From Archangiaceae bacterium (GTDB lineage: Bacteria > Myxococcota > Myxococcia > Myxococcales > Myxococcaceae), in assembly GCA_016879935.1 (NCBI GenBank), contig JAACJQ010000378.1:1-64000 (forward strand): a stretch of DNA of 64,000 bases. The letters are read 5' to 3'. A model generated the notes under the pieces. The model ran no database searches, was not told where the DNA came from, and saw nothing but the letters and a program-made list of their open reading frames with translations. Shown here one piece after another: positions 27,310 through 34,610 of the stretch. Both the position numbers and the translations under genes were made by a program. Position 1 is the stretch's first letter. Each line of letters starts with the position of its first letter.

Positions 27310-27746
27310 TCTCGACCCTGCTCCTCCAGGTCGCCCTGGCGGCGCCCCTGTCGACCGAGCAGATGGCACGCGCCGAGCCGCAGACGCTCACCGCCGAGCT
27401 CAAACGCGTCGACGAGGCTTTGCTCAAGGTGCAACCAGTACCGGCAGGGCAGGTCTTCTCGAAGGCGGGCGAACGCGGTGGCATCTTCCTCGCGGTCGGC
27501 ATGATCCCCGGGTTGGCGGTGGGCCTGCTGCTCTCGAGCGGCGGCAGCATCGGCACCAACGACAAGCTCGCCGTGGCCCTCGGAACGCCGGTGCTGGTCG
27601 CCGCAGGTGTCGGCCTCGTCGCCTTCATCGGCTCGTTGCTCGAGTACGTCTTCGTCGAAGGCCCCGAGCGAACCTCGGAGCGGGAGCGCCTCACCGCGTA
27701 TCGCCTCGAGCTGCAGCGTCGGCTCTCGCCATCAGCCGCGCCTTGA
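27306..27746 (+). CDS. Small membrane protein coupled to the pseudokinase
   Basis: 146 residues from an ATG that overlaps the pseudokinase stop (ATGA). A hydrophobic N-terminus (MISTLLLQVALAAPL) looks like a signal sequence. Two further hydrophobic segments (about 60-78 and 90-110) follow a short helical region TLTAELKRVDEALLKVQ. The C-terminus is charged. No family recognised. The coupling suggests it is a partner of the pseudokinase. Its last 56 bases overlap the convergent RNA ligase gene. Confidence 0.65.
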   Translation: MISTLLLQVALAAPLSTEQMARAEPQTLTAELKRVDEALLKVQPVPAGQVFSKAGERGGIFLAVGMIPGLAVGLLLSSGGSIGTNDKLAVALGTPVLVAAGVGLVAFIGSLLEYVFVEGPERTSERERLTAYRLELQRRLSPSAAP

Positions 27747-28605
27747 GCGTCTCTTCGTCTGCCCCGAGCCGGGCGAAGCTGTGGGGAAACGCGAGCGCGA
27801 GGTCGAGCAGCACGTCGAACACGACCTCCTCCCGAAGCGCGGCGACGTCGGTGCCGACCTTCGATCTCGCGCTGGCGAGCCGCCCGGGCGTGAAGCAGCG
27901 CTGCGCGTGCTCCCAGAGCGACTCGAGCCCAAGCCCTCCCACGTCGTGAAACGGCGCCGACTCGTCGAAGCGGCCCTCGCTGAACTCGGCGATCTTTCGC
28001 TTCAACGGCGCAGGGTCGTTCACGCTCCGAGCGGCCAGCGGCTTGATCACCAGCCCTTCGGCGACGTTGTCGGTGAGCGGCGGCAAGCCGAGCGCGGCTG
28101 GAATTCGAGTGGGAGCGCGGGTGGGCAGCGCCTCGAGGTCGGCGAGGGTGCCCCTGGCGATGAACGGAACGCGCAGCACGCCAGCGGCAGCTGCGAGGCG
28201 ATCGACCGCCTCGTGCGCGAGAAACGAGGTGCCCACGCGAACGTCGAAGAGCGCCCAGTGAAGCTGTGGTGAGTACCAGACGCCGGTCTGCACGGCCTGA
28301 AGGCCGGGAATCGGGGCGACCTCGGGGTGCGGGTAGGCGCCGCCGAAGAGCTCTCCGTAGAGAATCGCGTCTTCGCCGAGTGCCGCGCGAATGGTCAGCG
28401 CCGACTCGGTGAGTGACGCGCGCAACAGCTGCCAGCCGAAGAACGGCTCATCGTCGGCCAGCCACGCCTTGCGCTTCCCAAACCGCACCGCCCTGCCCGC
28501 CTCGATGACGAGCTGGGCGCCGTGCACCTTCTCGGAGGCAATCGACGCCCCGACGACGGTGCCGCCGGGCCGGGTACCGATTCGGGGGAAGGAGGGAAAG
28601 CCCAT
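27691..28605 (-). CDS. RNA ligase, T4 Rnl2-like
   Basis: 304 residues. Nucleotidyltransferase motif I is EKVHGAQ with nucleophile Lys26, the form characteristic of Rnl2-type RNA ligases and their relatives. Motif III is YGELFGG (Glu85), motif IV EGLVIKP (183-189) and motif V KRK (202-204). A C-terminal helical domain of about 80 residues follows, as in Rnl2. It should seal 3'-OH/5'-phosphate RNA ends using ATP through a covalent Lys-AMP. No polynucleotide kinase, Hen1 or RtcB is nearby. It is downstream of DUF4259-like and DUF1835-like genes. Confidence 0.8.
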   Translation of the reverse strand: MGFPSFPRIGTRPGGTVVGASIASEKVHGAQLVIEAGRAVRFGKRKAWLADDEPFFGWQLLRASLTESALTIRAALGEDAILYGELFGGAYPHPEVAPIPGLQAVQTGVWYSPQLHWALFDVRVGTSFLAHEAVDRLAAAAGVLRVPFIARGTLADLEALPTRAPTRIPAALGLPPLTDNVAEGLVIKPLAARSVNDPAPLKRKIAEFSEGRFDESAPFHDVGGLGLESLWEHAQRCFTPGRLASARSKVGTDVAALREEVVFDVLLDLALAFPHSFARLGADEETLKARLMARADAAARGDTR

Positions 28606-29284: not shown

Positions 29285-30199
29285 TCAGGGACGCCACCTG
29301 CGTGATGAAGCCGTTCCGTACGGCCCAAAGCCGCCGACCTCGAGAGGAGGGAGTTGCTCGAGAGACTCGCTCCCTCGACGCAGCAACGCCCTGCCCTCGT
29401 TCGTCAGGCGGTACATGTAGCGCCGATACGGGTGGCCGTCGTGTTCCGTGACGTTTTGCTGTTCGACCGCCCGGATTCCCGCCCAGCGCGCCCAGGTCTG
29501 CAGACGCTCGTCGAACAGCCAGTCGCCCCAGAGCATCGCGTGCTCGTGGTGGCCCAGGGCCGTCAGGAGCACGTCGTGGGTCGTTGCGCTGGAACGGGTG
29601 GGGAGCGCCTCGAGGATGCGCCTGTCGAAGGTGCTGGGCATGAACCGGCCTCGGCGCTCGCGTGGCCAGAAGTCGGTCAGGCCGGTTGGGAGGGCGCCCA
29701 GCCAACCGTCCCGCGCAGGCCACGTCGGGAACCGCACGGGTCTGGGCACTTGCCCCGTCCACCAGCGGCTCCAGTTCCGGGCGAGCGCCTTGCGCTGTGC
29801 CTGGGGGAGTTCGCGCAGCCGCGGCGCTCGAGCGATCACCTCTTCGCGCACGAACGCGTACGCCAGCCACTCCAGGCGAGAGGTGCGATCCTCCATCGGG
29901 ACCACGGCGATCGCCCGCGCTGACGCGAAGGCACTGCAGACCCACCAGAGGTGAAAGCGAGCCCACGCTCCGGAGCCGGCCCAGAAGACGACGGACTGCT
30001 CTGCCGGCGGTTGGGGCAAAGACATCGGCCACGGCGGCGGGCGGTGTTCCATCGGCCACGAACGAACCCCCAGCGCGGCCAGACACGTTGGTCCGATGTG
30101 CAGGGCCCCTGCCCAGCGCTCGGGCAGTCTCAGTTGCTCCGGCGGAGGCCCGATTCGCACCGCGTCGATGACCGGCCAGGACGACGACCGGAACTTCAT
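29285..30199 (-). CDS. Divergent DUF1835-family protein
   Basis: 304 residues. Short patches match what I recall of DUF1835 proteins: an N-terminal LHIG, SVVFWAGSGAWARFHLWWV, then RRILEALPTRSS and a C-terminal LTNEGRALLRRG with EVGGFGPYG. The similarity is spread over the whole length but weak at any one site. The ATG at 30199 overlaps the stop of the upstream gene by one base (TGATG), so it is coupled to it. No catalytic residues can be named. Confidence 0.5.
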   Translation of the reverse strand: MKFRSSSWPVIDAVRIGPPPEQLRLPERWAGALHIGPTCLAALGVRSWPMEHRPPPWPMSLPQPPAEQSVVFWAGSGAWARFHLWWVCSAFASARAIAVVPMEDRTSRLEWLAYAFVREEVIARAPRLRELPQAQRKALARNWSRWWTGQVPRPVRFPTWPARDGWLGALPTGLTDFWPRERRGRFMPSTFDRRILEALPTRSSATTHDVLLTALGHHEHAMLWGDWLFDERLQTWARWAGIRAVEQQNVTEHDGHPYRRYMYRLTNEGRALLRRGSESLEQLPPLEVGGFGPYGTASSRRWRP

Positions 30200-31395
30200 C
30201 AGCCCGCTCGCGCCGCCTGACGTGCCTTGATGAGGGTGTCGTAGCTGCGCGACACCCCCTGGCTCACGATCAGCAGCTCTCCGATGTCGGGCGGCGTCAT
30301 CTGATCGGGCCCGTTGTCGACGTAGAGAATGTGCACCGGCTTGCCGCGCACGAGCAGCGGCATCATCACTGCCGTCGTCGGGTAGCCGCCGCCGAGCATC
30401 TTGTAGAAGACCGCCATACCCGGCGTGCGCTTCATGGGCCCGATGAAGTGACTGCGCAGATCGCGCACCATCTTCACCGAGTTGTCCTCCTTCAACGACA
30501 GGCCGATGCGCTGCACGCCCTGCTGGGTGACGCCCTTGCCGATGCCTTGCCAGCCCGTGACGAGATCGCCGCGAACCGAGAGCAGCAGCGCGCGCTTGAA
30601 CTTGCCCTTCGCGAACCGCAGCACCGTGCGGGCGATGTCTTCGCGGTCCTGGCTGGCCTGCAGCAGCTTCTGGGCTTCGGCGAAGTTGACGGCGGGCAGC
30701 TCGGGCTTCGGCACCACGAGCGGTGGTGGCGGCTTCACCAGCGCAGGCAGCTGCTCGGTCGGAGCCTCGATGATCTCGCCGCCGATCACCGGCACTTCGT
30801 CCTCGATGACCGCCCCTTCGAGCACCTCTTCTTCGACCGCCGAGGCCTGCGCGTAGAGCGACGCGAAGTCACCCTCGTTGATGAGGTCGTCGACCTCGGC
30901 GAGCTTCGGATCGCCGGCGTTCTGGGCCTTCGTCGGCCGCAGGGTGTTCATGTCGATCGGCCGCATGGGCCGAAACGCCTTCGCGTACTTCCGCAACAGC
31001 TGCGTCATGCGGAACTCGGGGATCACCACCTGCACCACGCGCTTGCCCGACTTGAACCCGAGCGCGTCGATGGCCGCGAGCTGCTGCTTGGGGTGCATGA
31101 TCGCGAGCGTCAGCTTCGTCGCGTCGACGCGCATCGGCATCACGTCTTTGTCGTCGTAGAAGGCGAGCTCGGTCACGGCGATCGCCGCGGGGTCGGGCAC
31201 CATCTCGCCCGACGCGAAGGGAATATTGTGCTGGCGGCCCAACACGCGGGCGAGATCGGCCTCCTTCACGAAGCCGAGCTCGACGAGGTTGGTGCCGAGG
31301 CGGCCGCCGTAGACGACCTGCGTCTCGAGCCCCTCCTCGAGCTGCGCCTGGGTGATGAGCTTCTCTTCCAACAGCAGGCTTCCAAGTCGTGGCAC
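30199..31395 (-). CDS. T2SSE_N-domain protein with GAF-like C-terminus (no ATPase domain)
   Basis: 398 residues from a GTG at 31395, chosen because the family opens PRLGSLLLEEKLITQAQLEEGL; 18 codons upstream remain open. Residues 1-140 match the N-terminal domain of type II secretion/type IV pilus ATPases (GRLGTNLVELGFVKEADLARVL, AIMHPKQQLAAIDAL), but the Walker ATPase that normally follows is absent. Instead there is an acidic/Pro linker and a GAF-like domain (about 250-395: FKRALLLSVRGDLVTGWQGIG, GKPVHILYVDNGP). It may be a regulator or adaptor of motility or secretion machinery, or a c-di-GMP-type sensor; this is inference. Confidence 0.7.
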   Translation of the reverse strand: MPRLGSLLLEEKLITQAQLEEGLETQVVYGGRLGTNLVELGFVKEADLARVLGRQHNIPFASGEMVPDPAAIAVTELAFYDDKDVMPMRVDATKLTLAIMHPKQQLAAIDALGFKSGKRVVQVVIPEFRMTQLLRKYAKAFRPMRPIDMNTLRPTKAQNAGDPKLAEVDDLINEGDFASLYAQASAVEEEVLEGAVIEDEVPVIGGEIIEAPTEQLPALVKPPPPLVVPKPELPAVNFAEAQKLLQASQDREDIARTVLRFAKGKFKRALLLSVRGDLVTGWQGIGKGVTQQGVQRIGLSLKEDNSVKMVRDLRSHFIGPMKRTPGMAVFYKMLGGGYPTTAVMMPLLVRGKPVHILYVDNGPDQMTPPDIGELLIVSQGVSRSYDTLIKARQAARAG

Positions 31396-31457
31396 GGCGC
31401 GGAAGATACACCCGACGTCACGCTTGTGCGGAGGCGATCGGAGATCCACGCTGCGTC

Positions 31458-32162
31458 ATGCCCCGTTGGGTCGAACGATCACGTCCGCTGACTGGTGATG
31501 AGCGTCATCAACTCGAGCTCTGCCGAACCGTCGGCCGGGAGTTGATGACCGGGGAGCCGCCCACGATGGTGCCGCTGCTGCTGATGTTCGGCACCGATCG
31601 GGTGCACCCCGAGCACGTGATCGCCCTCCCCGATGCCGAGGCGGCGCCACGAACGCCGACGGCGCAGCACCTGAAAGAGCGCCTGCCGCGAACGTGGGCC
31701 CTGCTTCGTGCAGGCGAACACGAGGGCAAGCAGGGCCTGCTCGTCGATCTCGGCGATCGGCAGACGGCGTTCGTCGTGCTGCTGGTGGGCGACGCAGAGC
31801 CGATCCTCCTCGATCAGCTGGTGAGTCCGCTGCGCATCGACCCCACCGACGCCGAACTCGACGCCATCGACGACGTGGTGACGCGGGCGAAGGAGTTGCC
31901 GCCGGGCACCGTGCTCGCCATCGACGACGCGACTGGGCGCGAGACCCGCTTCGAGCCGAAGGCCGACACGCGCTCCCTGGGCCACCTGATGGACGAGGTG
32001 CAGCACACCCTGATGGAGAGCGCGACGCACTTTCGTCTCTGCGGCGTCGGCGAACGGGGCGATCTGCTCGCGGGCGTCACCTCCGCAGGCCGCACCTGCA
32101 CGTTCACGGTACGCGGCGGCGAGAAGGTGCTGCTCCATGCCCCTTCCCTCGGGGAAGACTGA
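31458..32162 (+). CDS. Hypothetical protein
   Basis: 234 residues from the ATG at 31458. Soluble, no signal peptide or membrane segment, rich in Glu/Asp and Leu, mixed alpha/beta by eye (LMFGTDRVHPEHVIALPDAEAA, QTAFVVLLVGDAEPILLDQLV, TFTVRGGEKVLLHA). No motif recognised. It is divergent from the T2SSE_N gene (62 bases) and precedes the coiled-coil gene by 80 bases on the same strand. Confidence 0.55.
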   Translation: MPRWVERSRPLTGDERHQLELCRTVGRELMTGEPPTMVPLLLMFGTDRVHPEHVIALPDAEAAPRTPTAQHLKERLPRTWALLRAGEHEGKQGLLVDLGDRQTAFVVLLVGDAEPILLDQLVSPLRIDPTDAELDAIDDVVTRAKELPPGTVLAIDDATGRETRFEPKADTRSLGHLMDEVQHTLMESATHFRLCGVGERGDLLAGVTSAGRTCTFTVRGGEKVLLHAPSLGED

Positions 32163-32242
32163 CCGCGGGGCTTGCAGGCGAGCCGTGGTGGCAGCTAATG
32201 GCCCACCCGCCGTCCCACCCAGTACCCGTCGAGGAAATACGC

Positions 32243-33256
32243 ATGTCATTGATCGTCATCACCGTCCTCCTGGCCATCGCGCTGATCGCCAGTCTGGCCT
32301 TCAACATGGGCTTCTTCGGAGCGAAGGCCGCTCCCGCGAAGTCGAGCTCCAACGAGGCCGCGCCCCGCAACGACCGTCGTGACGACGACAGCGCCGCCCG
32401 CGCCAGCAAGCTCGAGAGCGAGCTCGACAAGAAGAAGAAGGAGCTCGACGAGGTGAAGAAGGCGCAGTCCGAGCTGAAGGACGAGCTCAAGGCCGCGAAG
32501 AAGAAGCTCTTCGACCAGCGCGAGACCGAGAAGGCCGGAGACGATCTCGTCAAGGCCCGCGCCGAGGTCGAGCGCCAGGCGTCGATTCAGCTCGAGTCGA
32601 CCCGTCAGGAGCTCTCGAACGCCCTCGCCGAGGTGCAGCGCCTGAAGAACGAGGCCGATCAGCGCGGGAAGAAGCGCGCCGAGCAGCCGAAGCCCGCAGA
32701 GGCCGTCGAGGCGAAGGCTGAAGAGAAGCGTGAGCCGCCTCCGCCCGTGCAGCGCGTGATTCGCGAGCTGTCCGAGGCCGAGAAGGAGAAGATGAACCGC
32801 CTCGAGCAGCAGTCGGCCCAGGACAAGAAGAAGGCGATCGAGCTGGCCGCCGAGCTCCGCAACGTGAAGGCCCGCATCGAGCGCGAGAAGCGTGAAGCCC
32901 GCCGCGTGTACGAAGAAGGCAAGCTCGCCCGCGACAAGTTCCGCGCCGTCGAGATTCGCCTGAACCGCACCCTGCTCGAGAGCGATCTGCTCAAGCGCGC
33001 CATCTCTGACCTCGAGAAGAAGACCGGCACCAAGGCCGAGAAGGTCACCCTCACCGCCGAAGAGCTCGCGGCCAGCGATCAGACGATGCGCGAGAAGCAC
33101 AACGCCGAAGACAAGGCGTCGGAAGAGGCGATGGCCAAGCTCGAGGCCGCCGAGGCCACCAACCTCGAGGCGCCGGCTGCCGATGCCGCGACCGCGACCG
33201 GCCCCGTGACGCCGTCGACCGAGACGCCCGCGCCGACCACCACGCCGACGGCGTGA
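32243..33256 (+). CDS. Membrane-anchored coiled-coil protein
   Basis: 337 residues with GAGGAAAT seven bases before the ATG. One N-terminal TM helix (SLIVITVLLAIALIASLAF, residues 2-20) is followed by about 250 residues of heptad-like charged sequence rich in Glu, Lys and Ala, broken by a Pro-rich hinge near residue 165 (EEKREPPPPVQR). The tail is Ala/Thr/Pro-rich. It resembles scaffold or signalling adaptors rather than an enzyme. It overlaps the diadenylate-cyclase-like gene by GTGA, which suggests a functional pair. Composition is like the neighbours, unlike the next gene. Confidence 0.75.
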   Translation: MSLIVITVLLAIALIASLAFNMGFFGAKAAPAKSSSNEAAPRNDRRDDDSAARASKLESELDKKKKELDEVKKAQSELKDELKAAKKKLFDQRETEKAGDDLVKARAEVERQASIQLESTRQELSNALAEVQRLKNEADQRGKKRAEQPKPAEAVEAKAEEKREPPPPVQRVIRELSEAEKEKMNRLEQQSAQDKKKAIELAAELRNVKARIEREKREARRVYEEGKLARDKFRAVEIRLNRTLLESDLLKRAISDLEKKTGTKAEKVTLTAEELAASDQTMREKHNAEDKASEEAMAKLEAAEATNLEAPAADAATATGPVTPSTETPAPTTTPTA

Positions 33257-34302
33257 TTGCCGACCTTGAAGCAACGCTTGCGCAGGTGAGGAATCACCTC
33301 GGAGAGGCGTTGCCCTCCCAAATCACCGAGCAACAGGCGCTTCGCGATTTGGTGACAGTGGGGTTTTGGAGTTCGCTGGAGCGATACGAGGGCCGGTCGA
33401 CCCAAGGTCGGCTGCTCGTTTCCCCCAGCGGATTTGATCGCGCGTCGGTCCCACTCGCCAACCTCAACGCACCGCTCCCGCTCACTCCAGAGTTGGTGAA
33501 GAAGCTGAGTGCAGCCTCTCGCGAACGAGGCGCAAGCATCCTCGTAGACCGCCTAGGTGAAACTTGGATGGCGCGGGGATTGGGCTTTCCGAGCGTGCAG
33601 TATGGACTCTGGGTTTCGTGGAGCAGACCGGGAGTGATTCGGCTGGGCTATTTCAAGTCGGCATTGGCCGTTGTTCATGAAGGAACGGCTTTCTTCTTGG
33701 GTGAAGAGAGCATGTTCCCCGTCACAGAAATCGCGGAGCGGCTGGGTCCCAAGAAGAACGATTTCCAAACTGCACAGGCGATTCGCCAGGTGCTGACAGA
33801 AATGAGGACTGGCCACGGCGGAACTCTTCTCGTCTTGCCGAACAGAAGCTACGCGAAGGACGCCTTTTCGGAATCGTTCCTAAGCGGACCTCAAGGCGAC
33901 CAGCTTGAGTTATTGGCGAATCAACTCGCGATGCGAGTCGGCGGGGTAAACACGCCGGTAGTCACTGTCGCACTTGCGCATCTTGCAAATCACGATGGCG
34001 CGTTGGTGATTACCAAGGGGCTGGGTCTGGTATCAGCGGGATCGAAGATCGCGGTCGAAGATTCGCCACCGACCGTTCTTCAGATGATCCCGACCAATCC
34101 CGTCCAGAAAAAACTGGTTCCTCCAGCTGAACTGGGTGGCACTCGCCATCAGTCTGCATGTCGCTTCGTGTGGAAGTACCGGGAAGCGGTTGCATTCGTC
34201 GTGTCGAGCGACGGACCAGTCACCGTGATGCACTTCGATGGGGAGCAGGTTGTGGCGACCAAGCACTTCGAATGGCTGCTCGACTCAGAAACGGTCACCT
34301 AG
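33253..34302 (+). CDS. Diadenylate-cyclase-like (DisA_N/DAC) protein with N-terminal sensor domain
   Basis: 349 residues from a GTG overlapping the upstream stop. The C-terminal half has the marks of the DAC domain that makes c-di-AMP from two ATP: GHGGTLLVLP (187-196), DGA (248-250) and GTRHQSA (296-302), corresponding to the DGA and GTRHR motifs of DisA/CdaA. The third residue of RHR is Gln here, and DGA-to-RH spacing is about 20 residues longer than in DisA. The N-terminal 180 residues resemble the DACNV-type probable sensor domain known before some DAC domains. The gene is visibly AT-richer than its neighbours. Activity is plausible but not certain. Confidence 0.7.
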   Translation: MIADLEATLAQVRNHLGEALPSQITEQQALRDLVTVGFWSSLERYEGRSTQGRLLVSPSGFDRASVPLANLNAPLPLTPELVKKLSAASRERGASILVDRLGETWMARGLGFPSVQYGLWVSWSRPGVIRLGYFKSALAVVHEGTAFFLGEESMFPVTEIAERLGPKKNDFQTAQAIRQVLTEMRTGHGGTLLVLPNRSYAKDAFSESFLSGPQGDQLELLANQLAMRVGGVNTPVVTVALAHLANHDGALVITKGLGLVSAGSKIAVEDSPPTVLQMIPTNPVQKKLVPPAELGGTRHQSACRFVWKYREAVAFVVSSDGPVTVMHFDGEQVVATKHFEWLLDSETVT

Positions 34303-34610
34303 CGGCGCAAGGACTCGACGAACCCCAGGCCGGTCTCGAGCGCCGCCAACCGCTGGGCGGAGAGCGCGCCGACTCGGACGCCCAGTCGAGCGAGCGGAAC
34401 CGTGAGCGCGTGCGCGACGATCACGCTCTGCTTCGGCAAGCCTCCCTCACCTGCCTCGAGCAACACGTTCCCCGGCGCTTTGGCCCGGTGCAGGTTCGAG
34501 GTCACCATCGCCACGATCGCGGTCGCCTCGTCGAGTGCGATCACCACGTGAGGGTGCGAGATGTCAGGCGCCTCGGCGACGAGCCAGACGACGTCTCCCC
34601 GCTGAATCAC
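34299..34610 (-). CDS. PemK/MazF-like protein
   Basis: 103 residues from a GTG that overlaps the TlpA-like stop (GTGA). It begins IQRGDVVWL and continues ALDEATAIVAMVTSNL, APGNVLLEAGEGGLPKQSVIV and ends in IG-like RVGALSAQRLAALE, the order of strands and motifs in PemK/MazF endoribonucleases. No antitoxin-like gene of the usual kind (AbrB/RHH) is adjacent; upstream are thioredoxin, Fur and HEAT-like genes. It may be a toxin with a distant antitoxin or a domesticated member. Its TAG stop shares the palindrome CTAG with the convergent DAC-like gene. Confidence 0.7.
   Translation of the reverse strand: MIQRGDVVWLVAEAPDISHPHVVIALDEATAIVAMVTSNLHRAKAPGNVLLEAGEGGLPKQSVIVAHALTVPLARLGVRVGALSAQRLAALETGLGFVESLRR

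Follow-up and report, generated by a model that had tools for sequence, protein, structure and literature searches.

A divergent DACNV-DAC gene in a myxobacterial genome, predicted to encode a diadenylate cyclase and probably acquired horizontally

An open reading frame in the genome of an Archangiaceae bacterium carries motifs of cyclic di-AMP (c-di-AMP) synthases behind an additional N-terminal domain and overlaps a gene encoding a membrane coiled-coil protein, raising the question of whether it represents a distinct branch of second-messenger signaling coupled to that protein, as was originally suggested, or a further member of a cyclase class that is already known. The window analyzed here is the whole 64,000-nucleotide stretch of contig JAACJQ010000378.1 in which the locus lies, and both reading frames, their overlap, and the HGGTLLVLP, DGA, and GTRHQSA motifs are present in it as had been claimed (Table 1). 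Specifically, the cyclase-like frame opens with a GTG start that sits on the stop of the coiled-coil gene, the overlap reading GTGA, and the confidence of the AF2 model from its first residue onward fits this start. Another species of the genus (genome G003) carries a homolog with 45% identity in the equivalent position, where it likewise overlaps the coiled-coil gene by GTGA and is followed by a convergent PemK-like gene; the two cyclase genes differ at 41, 38, and 66% of first, second, and third codon positions, respectively, a pattern indicative of purifying selection. On the strength of this homolog and of the codon-position pattern, comparison of the sequences identifies the cyclase frame as a genuine gene. 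The encoded protein contains no membrane helix.

Table 1. Coordinates of the cyclase gene, its domains and motifs, and its immediate neighbors in the window.
Feature	Coordinates	Strand	Evidence
DACNV-DAC protein, 349 aa	33253..34302	+	ORF; Pfam; AF2 mean pLDDT 84.3, model confident from its first residue
DACNV domain, residues 1-155	33253..33717	+	PF21751, 33.7 bits; domain-alone model pLDDT 89; annotated as probable sensor
DAC catalytic domain (predicted), residues 160-349	33730..34299	+	PF02457, 24.7 bits; hhalign probability 96.6%, E 6.8e-10; Z 13.3 to TmDisA 4yxm
HGGTLLVLP, residues 188-196	33814..33840	+	H188 22/23, G189 23/23, G190 22/23
DGA motif, residues 248-250, position of the catalytic Asp	33994..34002	+	D248 and A250 23/23; G249 is Asn in 6
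GTRHQSA, residues 296-302, RH(R) motif with Gln in third place	34138..34158	+	G296 and R298 23/23; H299 22/23; position 300 variable
SSDG, residues 318-321	34204..34215	+	S318, D320, and G321 23/23
TM coiled-coil protein, 337 aa	32243..33256	+	75-81% identity in the six other genus members; ancestral neighbor, not dedicated partner
PemK/MazF-like gene	34299..34610	-	PF02452, 42.6 bits (cut-off 23.1); convergent with the DAC gene, overlaps its last 4 bases

The profile search that had been proposed for the N-terminus proved positive: in Pfam, residues 24-102 exceed the DACNV cut-off of 27 bits, while the match of residues 184-327 to the DAC family falls just under its cut-off, also 27 bits. Among 23 relatives, 21 match the DACNV family and 16 the DAC family. 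Searches of the window protein with NCBIfam and PADLOC gave no match above cut-off, the model for the DS-2 anti-phage DAC (NF053872) leaving a sub-threshold trace at the GTRHQSA region (E 0.048, 12 bits against a cut-off of 630), and a search of the PDB with the single sequence returned a chance match only. Comparison of profiles and of predicted folds was more informative. The profile of the C-terminal domain of the DACNV-DAC family matches that of canonical DACs in hhalign, and the AF2 model of the window protein, built with a 23-row alignment of DACNV-DAC proteins as input (pTM 0.82), finds nothing but DACs above Z 4 in VIA-align, with DisA at 13.3, CdaS at 12.9, and CdaA at about 12. The fit to TmDisA extends over 131 residues with an rmsd of 2.7, and the best structural matches include c-di-AMP-bound DisA. 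In the same alignment, from which all conservation counts given here derive and which is too divergent for a pattern scan, G189, D248, A250, G296, R298, S318, D320, and G321 do not vary, and H188 and H299 each occur in 22 of the 23 proteins. By profile-profile comparison and predicted fold, the C-terminal half of the protein is a DAC domain. The full RHR motif is absent, RHQ standing in its place, which bears upon activity and not upon the domain assignment, since the latter derives from fold and profile. The protein belongs to the DACNV-DAC class, in the sense of a DACNV domain above cut-off followed by a DAC domain, with cyclase activity predicted. The original view of a c-di-AMP-synthase-like protein with an extra N-terminal domain is thereby upheld, while the portion of it that read RHQ and the spacing as signs of a distinct branch is not.

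Specifically, the distance between the DGA aspartate and the RH arginine is 50 residues in the window protein, compared with 33 in DacA/DisA of Mycobacterium tuberculosis (D72, R105; PMC3328451) and 32 in CdaA of Bacillus subtilis (D171, R203; PMC8573169). A DGA-RH spacing of 48-53 is, however, found in 22 of the 23 DACNV-DAC proteins, and the third residue of the RHx motif varies across them (Arg in 14, Gln in four, Asn in two, and Ala, Thr, and Lys in one each). Both traits thus occur class-wide, and neither marks a new branch that would stand apart from DisA and CdaA. A deep sub-branch does exist: in the tree the window protein joins the G003 copy (100/98) and then the relative in genome G092 (98/93), long branches leaving the last join unsure. 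This grouping is well supported in the sequence tree and is defined by overall sequence, not by RHQ or spacing. The G092 relative carries RIQ in place of RHQ, from which it may be that part of the sub-branch is decaying.

DACNV-DAC proteins, which combine PF21751 with PF02457 and are annotated as "putative sensor domain DACNV-containing protein," were reportedly defined by Galperin in 2023. The window protein shares with this class the domain order, the HGG, D-G/N-A, G-x-R-H, and S-x-D-G motifs, and the long DGA-RH spacing, but differs in that it and the G003 copy lie on a divergent sub-branch whose N-terminus is shorter; against the DACNV profile, the G003 copy scores only 13.4 bits. As judged from sequence, the gene belongs to a known, uncharacterized cyclase class, of which it is a further member placed on this sub-branch. 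With DisA (3c1y, 4yxm) the protein shares the DAC fold, whereas DisA has no DACNV domain before the DAC domain and, in M. tuberculosis, the shorter spacing noted above (PMC3328451). Similarly, the fold is that of CdaA and CdaS (Z of about 12-13), but the window protein lacks transmembrane helices and DACNV replaces the N-terminus of CdaA or CdaS. The DAC of the DS-2 system (NF053872; PMC13092281) resembles DACNV-DACs in that four of the 23 match its model, the best at 1.3e-7, while the window protein itself leaves only the trace described and its genome encodes no SMODS cyclase. Lastly, the DacZ-like cyclase of the host also possesses a DAC domain whose third motif residue is not Arg, but differs in its N-terminal DACZ_N/DacZ_P domain (near cut-off) and in the strong DAC match found in 39 of 40 relatives, as opposed to the patchy occurrence of the DACNV-DAC gene. 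In the papers searched, no experimental work on a DACNV-DAC was found.

Analysis of the N-terminal domain suggests where it may have come from. When the DACNV domain was modeled alone, its closest matches were CdaS 2fb5 (Z 9.1, rmsd 3.1, 108 residues) and Mycobacterium smegmatis DisA (Z 8.4), and the best 39 entries were all DACs, the next entry reaching Z 2.3; a weak FBPase likeness of the N-terminal half seen in the full model (Z 3.6) was gone. Foldseek likewise placed DACs in its top four positions with weak E values of 0.004-0.09, DacM, DisA, and CdaM ranking first. When the two halves are stacked by order of elements, a pairing that is our own reading of models and alignments because the programs report aligned ranges only, the DACNV helix-"EEG"-strand lies opposite the DAC helix-"HGG"-strand, "KLA...T.L.V.P..L.I.GLA" opposite "LTAVDGAVLL...L.VLGFG", and the last DACNV hairpin opposite "VSQDGP"; in this arrangement DACNV has lost the catalytic Asp to replacement and has no counterpart of the Arg-His helix. 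An internal hhalign comparison of DACNV with DAC scored 19.1, a value matched by one of 200 column shuffles and none of 200 block shuffles, though at a probability of just 1-2%, and DACNV matched independent canonical DACs weakly and in a different register. Evenly poised on these models is the reading that DACNV is a degenerate DAC domain, which would make every class member a fusion of a pseudo-cyclase with a cyclase, the dead copy regulating the live one or serving as its partner; shared ancestry of the two domains, taken by itself, lies between evenly balanced and likely. A literature search for degenerate or tandem DAC domains, the coverage of which did not include the class-defining work of Galperin, returned nothing relevant. 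If the reading is true, a worn-down enzyme copy serving as the sensor half would point to a new way of controlling such cyclases, and viewing DACNV-DACs as mobile accessory cyclases with a possibly dead-copy sensor leads to the direct questions of whether the tandem makes c-di-AMP and whether the dead half switches the cyclase.

By analogy with DisA and CdaA, two molecules would pair head-to-head via their DAC domains, each of which would bind ATP and a divalent metal and so yield c-di-AMP. The DACNV domain could control the cyclase either by keeping the DAC domain in or out of productive pairing or by taking a nucleotide as allosteric ligand, and the c-di-AMP formed would add to a pool probably made by the conserved DacZ-like cyclase and removed by a PgpH-like phosphodiesterase. 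Such a pool is plausible in this host. Its genome encodes the second, DacZ-like DAC (74-76 bits; locus L001 on G000:C146), a DAC of similar score is present in 39 of 40 relatives, and a PgpH-like 7TMR-HDED gene (118.8 bits; locus L119, G000:C215:33608-34453) is a candidate c-di-AMP phosphodiesterase. Searches of the host genome for a c-di-AMP riboswitch, a PstA-type receptor, and a GdpP-type phosphodiesterase found none, and the nearby c-di-AMP receptor whose presence the original prediction had proposed to look for was not recognized among the neighboring genes tested.

While the window protein is a probable c-di-AMP maker as predicted from its sequence, it is conceivable, if unlikely, that its DAC domain is catalytically dead and has been turned into a nucleotide-binding receptor or sensor. 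The presence of RHQ and not RHR, the RIQ of the G092 relative, and the weak DAC score are consistent with such a loss, as is the finding that replacement of the whole RHR motif by AAA abolishes the activity of M. tuberculosis DacA (PMC3328451) and of CdaS (PMC4568413). These experiments, however, replaced all three residues and thus do not address the third residue alone. It is only at this third place that the motif varies, the full or near-full conservation of D248, G296, R298, H299, S318, D320, and G321 arguing against a dead enzyme together with the purifying selection acting on the cyclase gene; moreover, the conserved DacZ-like protein of the host itself reads RHA (GARHAAA), so a non-Arg third residue alone is no sign of inactivity. 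The same variable residue, along with an S-x-D-G after the RH helix where CdaA has an S-E-E type sequence, could be taken to indicate that a diverged active site makes another product, either a linear dinucleotide or a cyclic one other than c-di-AMP. This is highly improbable given that the residues around the Asp and the Arg-His match those of c-di-AMP synthases and that the best structural matches include DisA with c-di-AMP, nothing direct pointing to another product. Synthesis of c-di-AMP is the activity predicted here.

The coupling to the neighboring gene that had been proposed fares less well, for the overlap is real but incidental. The coiled-coil protein, for which Pfam returned no family above cut-off, has a single N-terminal hydrophobic helix and many charged residues, and its gene is present in all seven members of the genus whereas the cyclase is present in two (the host and G003). 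In the five others (G001, G002, G004, G005, and G006) the same flanks, namely the coiled-coil gene on one side and the thioredoxin-like and Fur genes on the other, are joined without a DAC gene, and the coiled-coil gene occurs in all other genomes of the same family tested, many of them without the cyclase. The notion of a conserved coiled-coil/DAC unit was consequently rejected. That the two genes nonetheless form one dedicated membrane-signaling module, as the retention of the translational overlap in two species despite 45% cyclase identity might imply, is very unlikely, since other DACNV-DAC genes examined do not lie beside this coiled-coil gene and the cyclase and coiled-coil genes are unlike in composition and in rate of change. 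Between the window and G003, identities are 81% for the coiled-coil protein, 79% for the thioredoxin-like protein, 86% for Fur, and 56% for the PemK-like protein. The GTGA overlap probably couples cyclase translation to that of the coiled-coil gene, but such coupling is a matter of expression and no evidence of a joint pathway.

Several observations together suggest that the cyclase is probably a horizontally acquired accessory gene of the DACNV-DAC class: its composition is foreign, five members of the genus show a DAC-free gap at the same place, and relatives of the gene neighbor mobile elements. With regard to composition, GC3 of the cyclase gene is 0.646 compared with 0.880 +/- 0.033 for the 44 called genes of the window, a contrast somewhat overstated because the gene caller favors typical genes, and in 15 of 21 relatives the DAC gene lies at least 0.10 below its neighbors. 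A foreign composition is not universal, the G003 cyclase being host-like at 0.884, and the window and G003 copies could equally stem from two separate gains or from a single insertion after which one allele was replaced. With regard to distribution, 34 of the 195 genomes sampled from the phylum contain DACNV, DACNV-DACs range across myxobacteria and extend to Bacteroidota, and scans of genome collections with the window protein returned the same-genus homolog only. One copy (genome G118, L102 7630-8913) resides within a prophage head module between portal/Mu-F-like genes and an XkdF-type protease/adenine-methylase gene, and other copies have a serine recombinase (L104) or IS transposases (L097, L108) nearby. 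No close relative of the window protein was found on plasmids or viral contigs, and a related DACNV-DAC used as query retrieved a Hymenobacter plasmid only, with nothing in phages or viral contigs.

Patchy, mobile occurrence of this kind suggests, as a lead, a conditional and not a housekeeping role, possibly in conflict with phage. In the DS-2 system, encoded beside a CBASS, a DAC is needed for phage defense (PMC13092281), which makes orphan DACNV-DACs worth testing in defense. The host genome contains no SMODS cyclase, and neither a CBASS part nor a known defense gene was found among the neighbors tested or in the window, so that a role in phage conflict is a lead only.

Additional features were observed around these genes. 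Upstream of the coiled-coil gene, the six other members of the genus carry an Hsp70 gene that is absent from the window, where positions 31389-32243 hold an unknown frame of 205 aa. The PemK/MazF-like gene overlaps the end of the thioredoxin-like gene, with no antitoxin gene seen beside it; within the genus it is limited to the host, G003, and G005, and it diverges faster than its neighbors (53-56% identity as compared with about 79%). Elsewhere, one genome has a DACNV-DAC gene and an AHH-nuclease gene side by side in the same orientation (L110 5723-8483), the RIQ relative of G092 is followed by a DUF6901 gene (L109 7664-8734), and on the Hymenobacter plasmid (NZ_CP094535.1, L114 3062-6588) a patatin-Omp85 fusion gene directly precedes the DACNV-DAC gene, a possible cyclase/phospholipase pair. 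Finally, the minus strand of the window encodes an RNA-ligase-family protein (27691-28605; PF09414, 54.2 bits) and an MshEN-domain protein (30199-31449; 36 bits), MshEN domains being known c-di-GMP receptors (PMC5013675).
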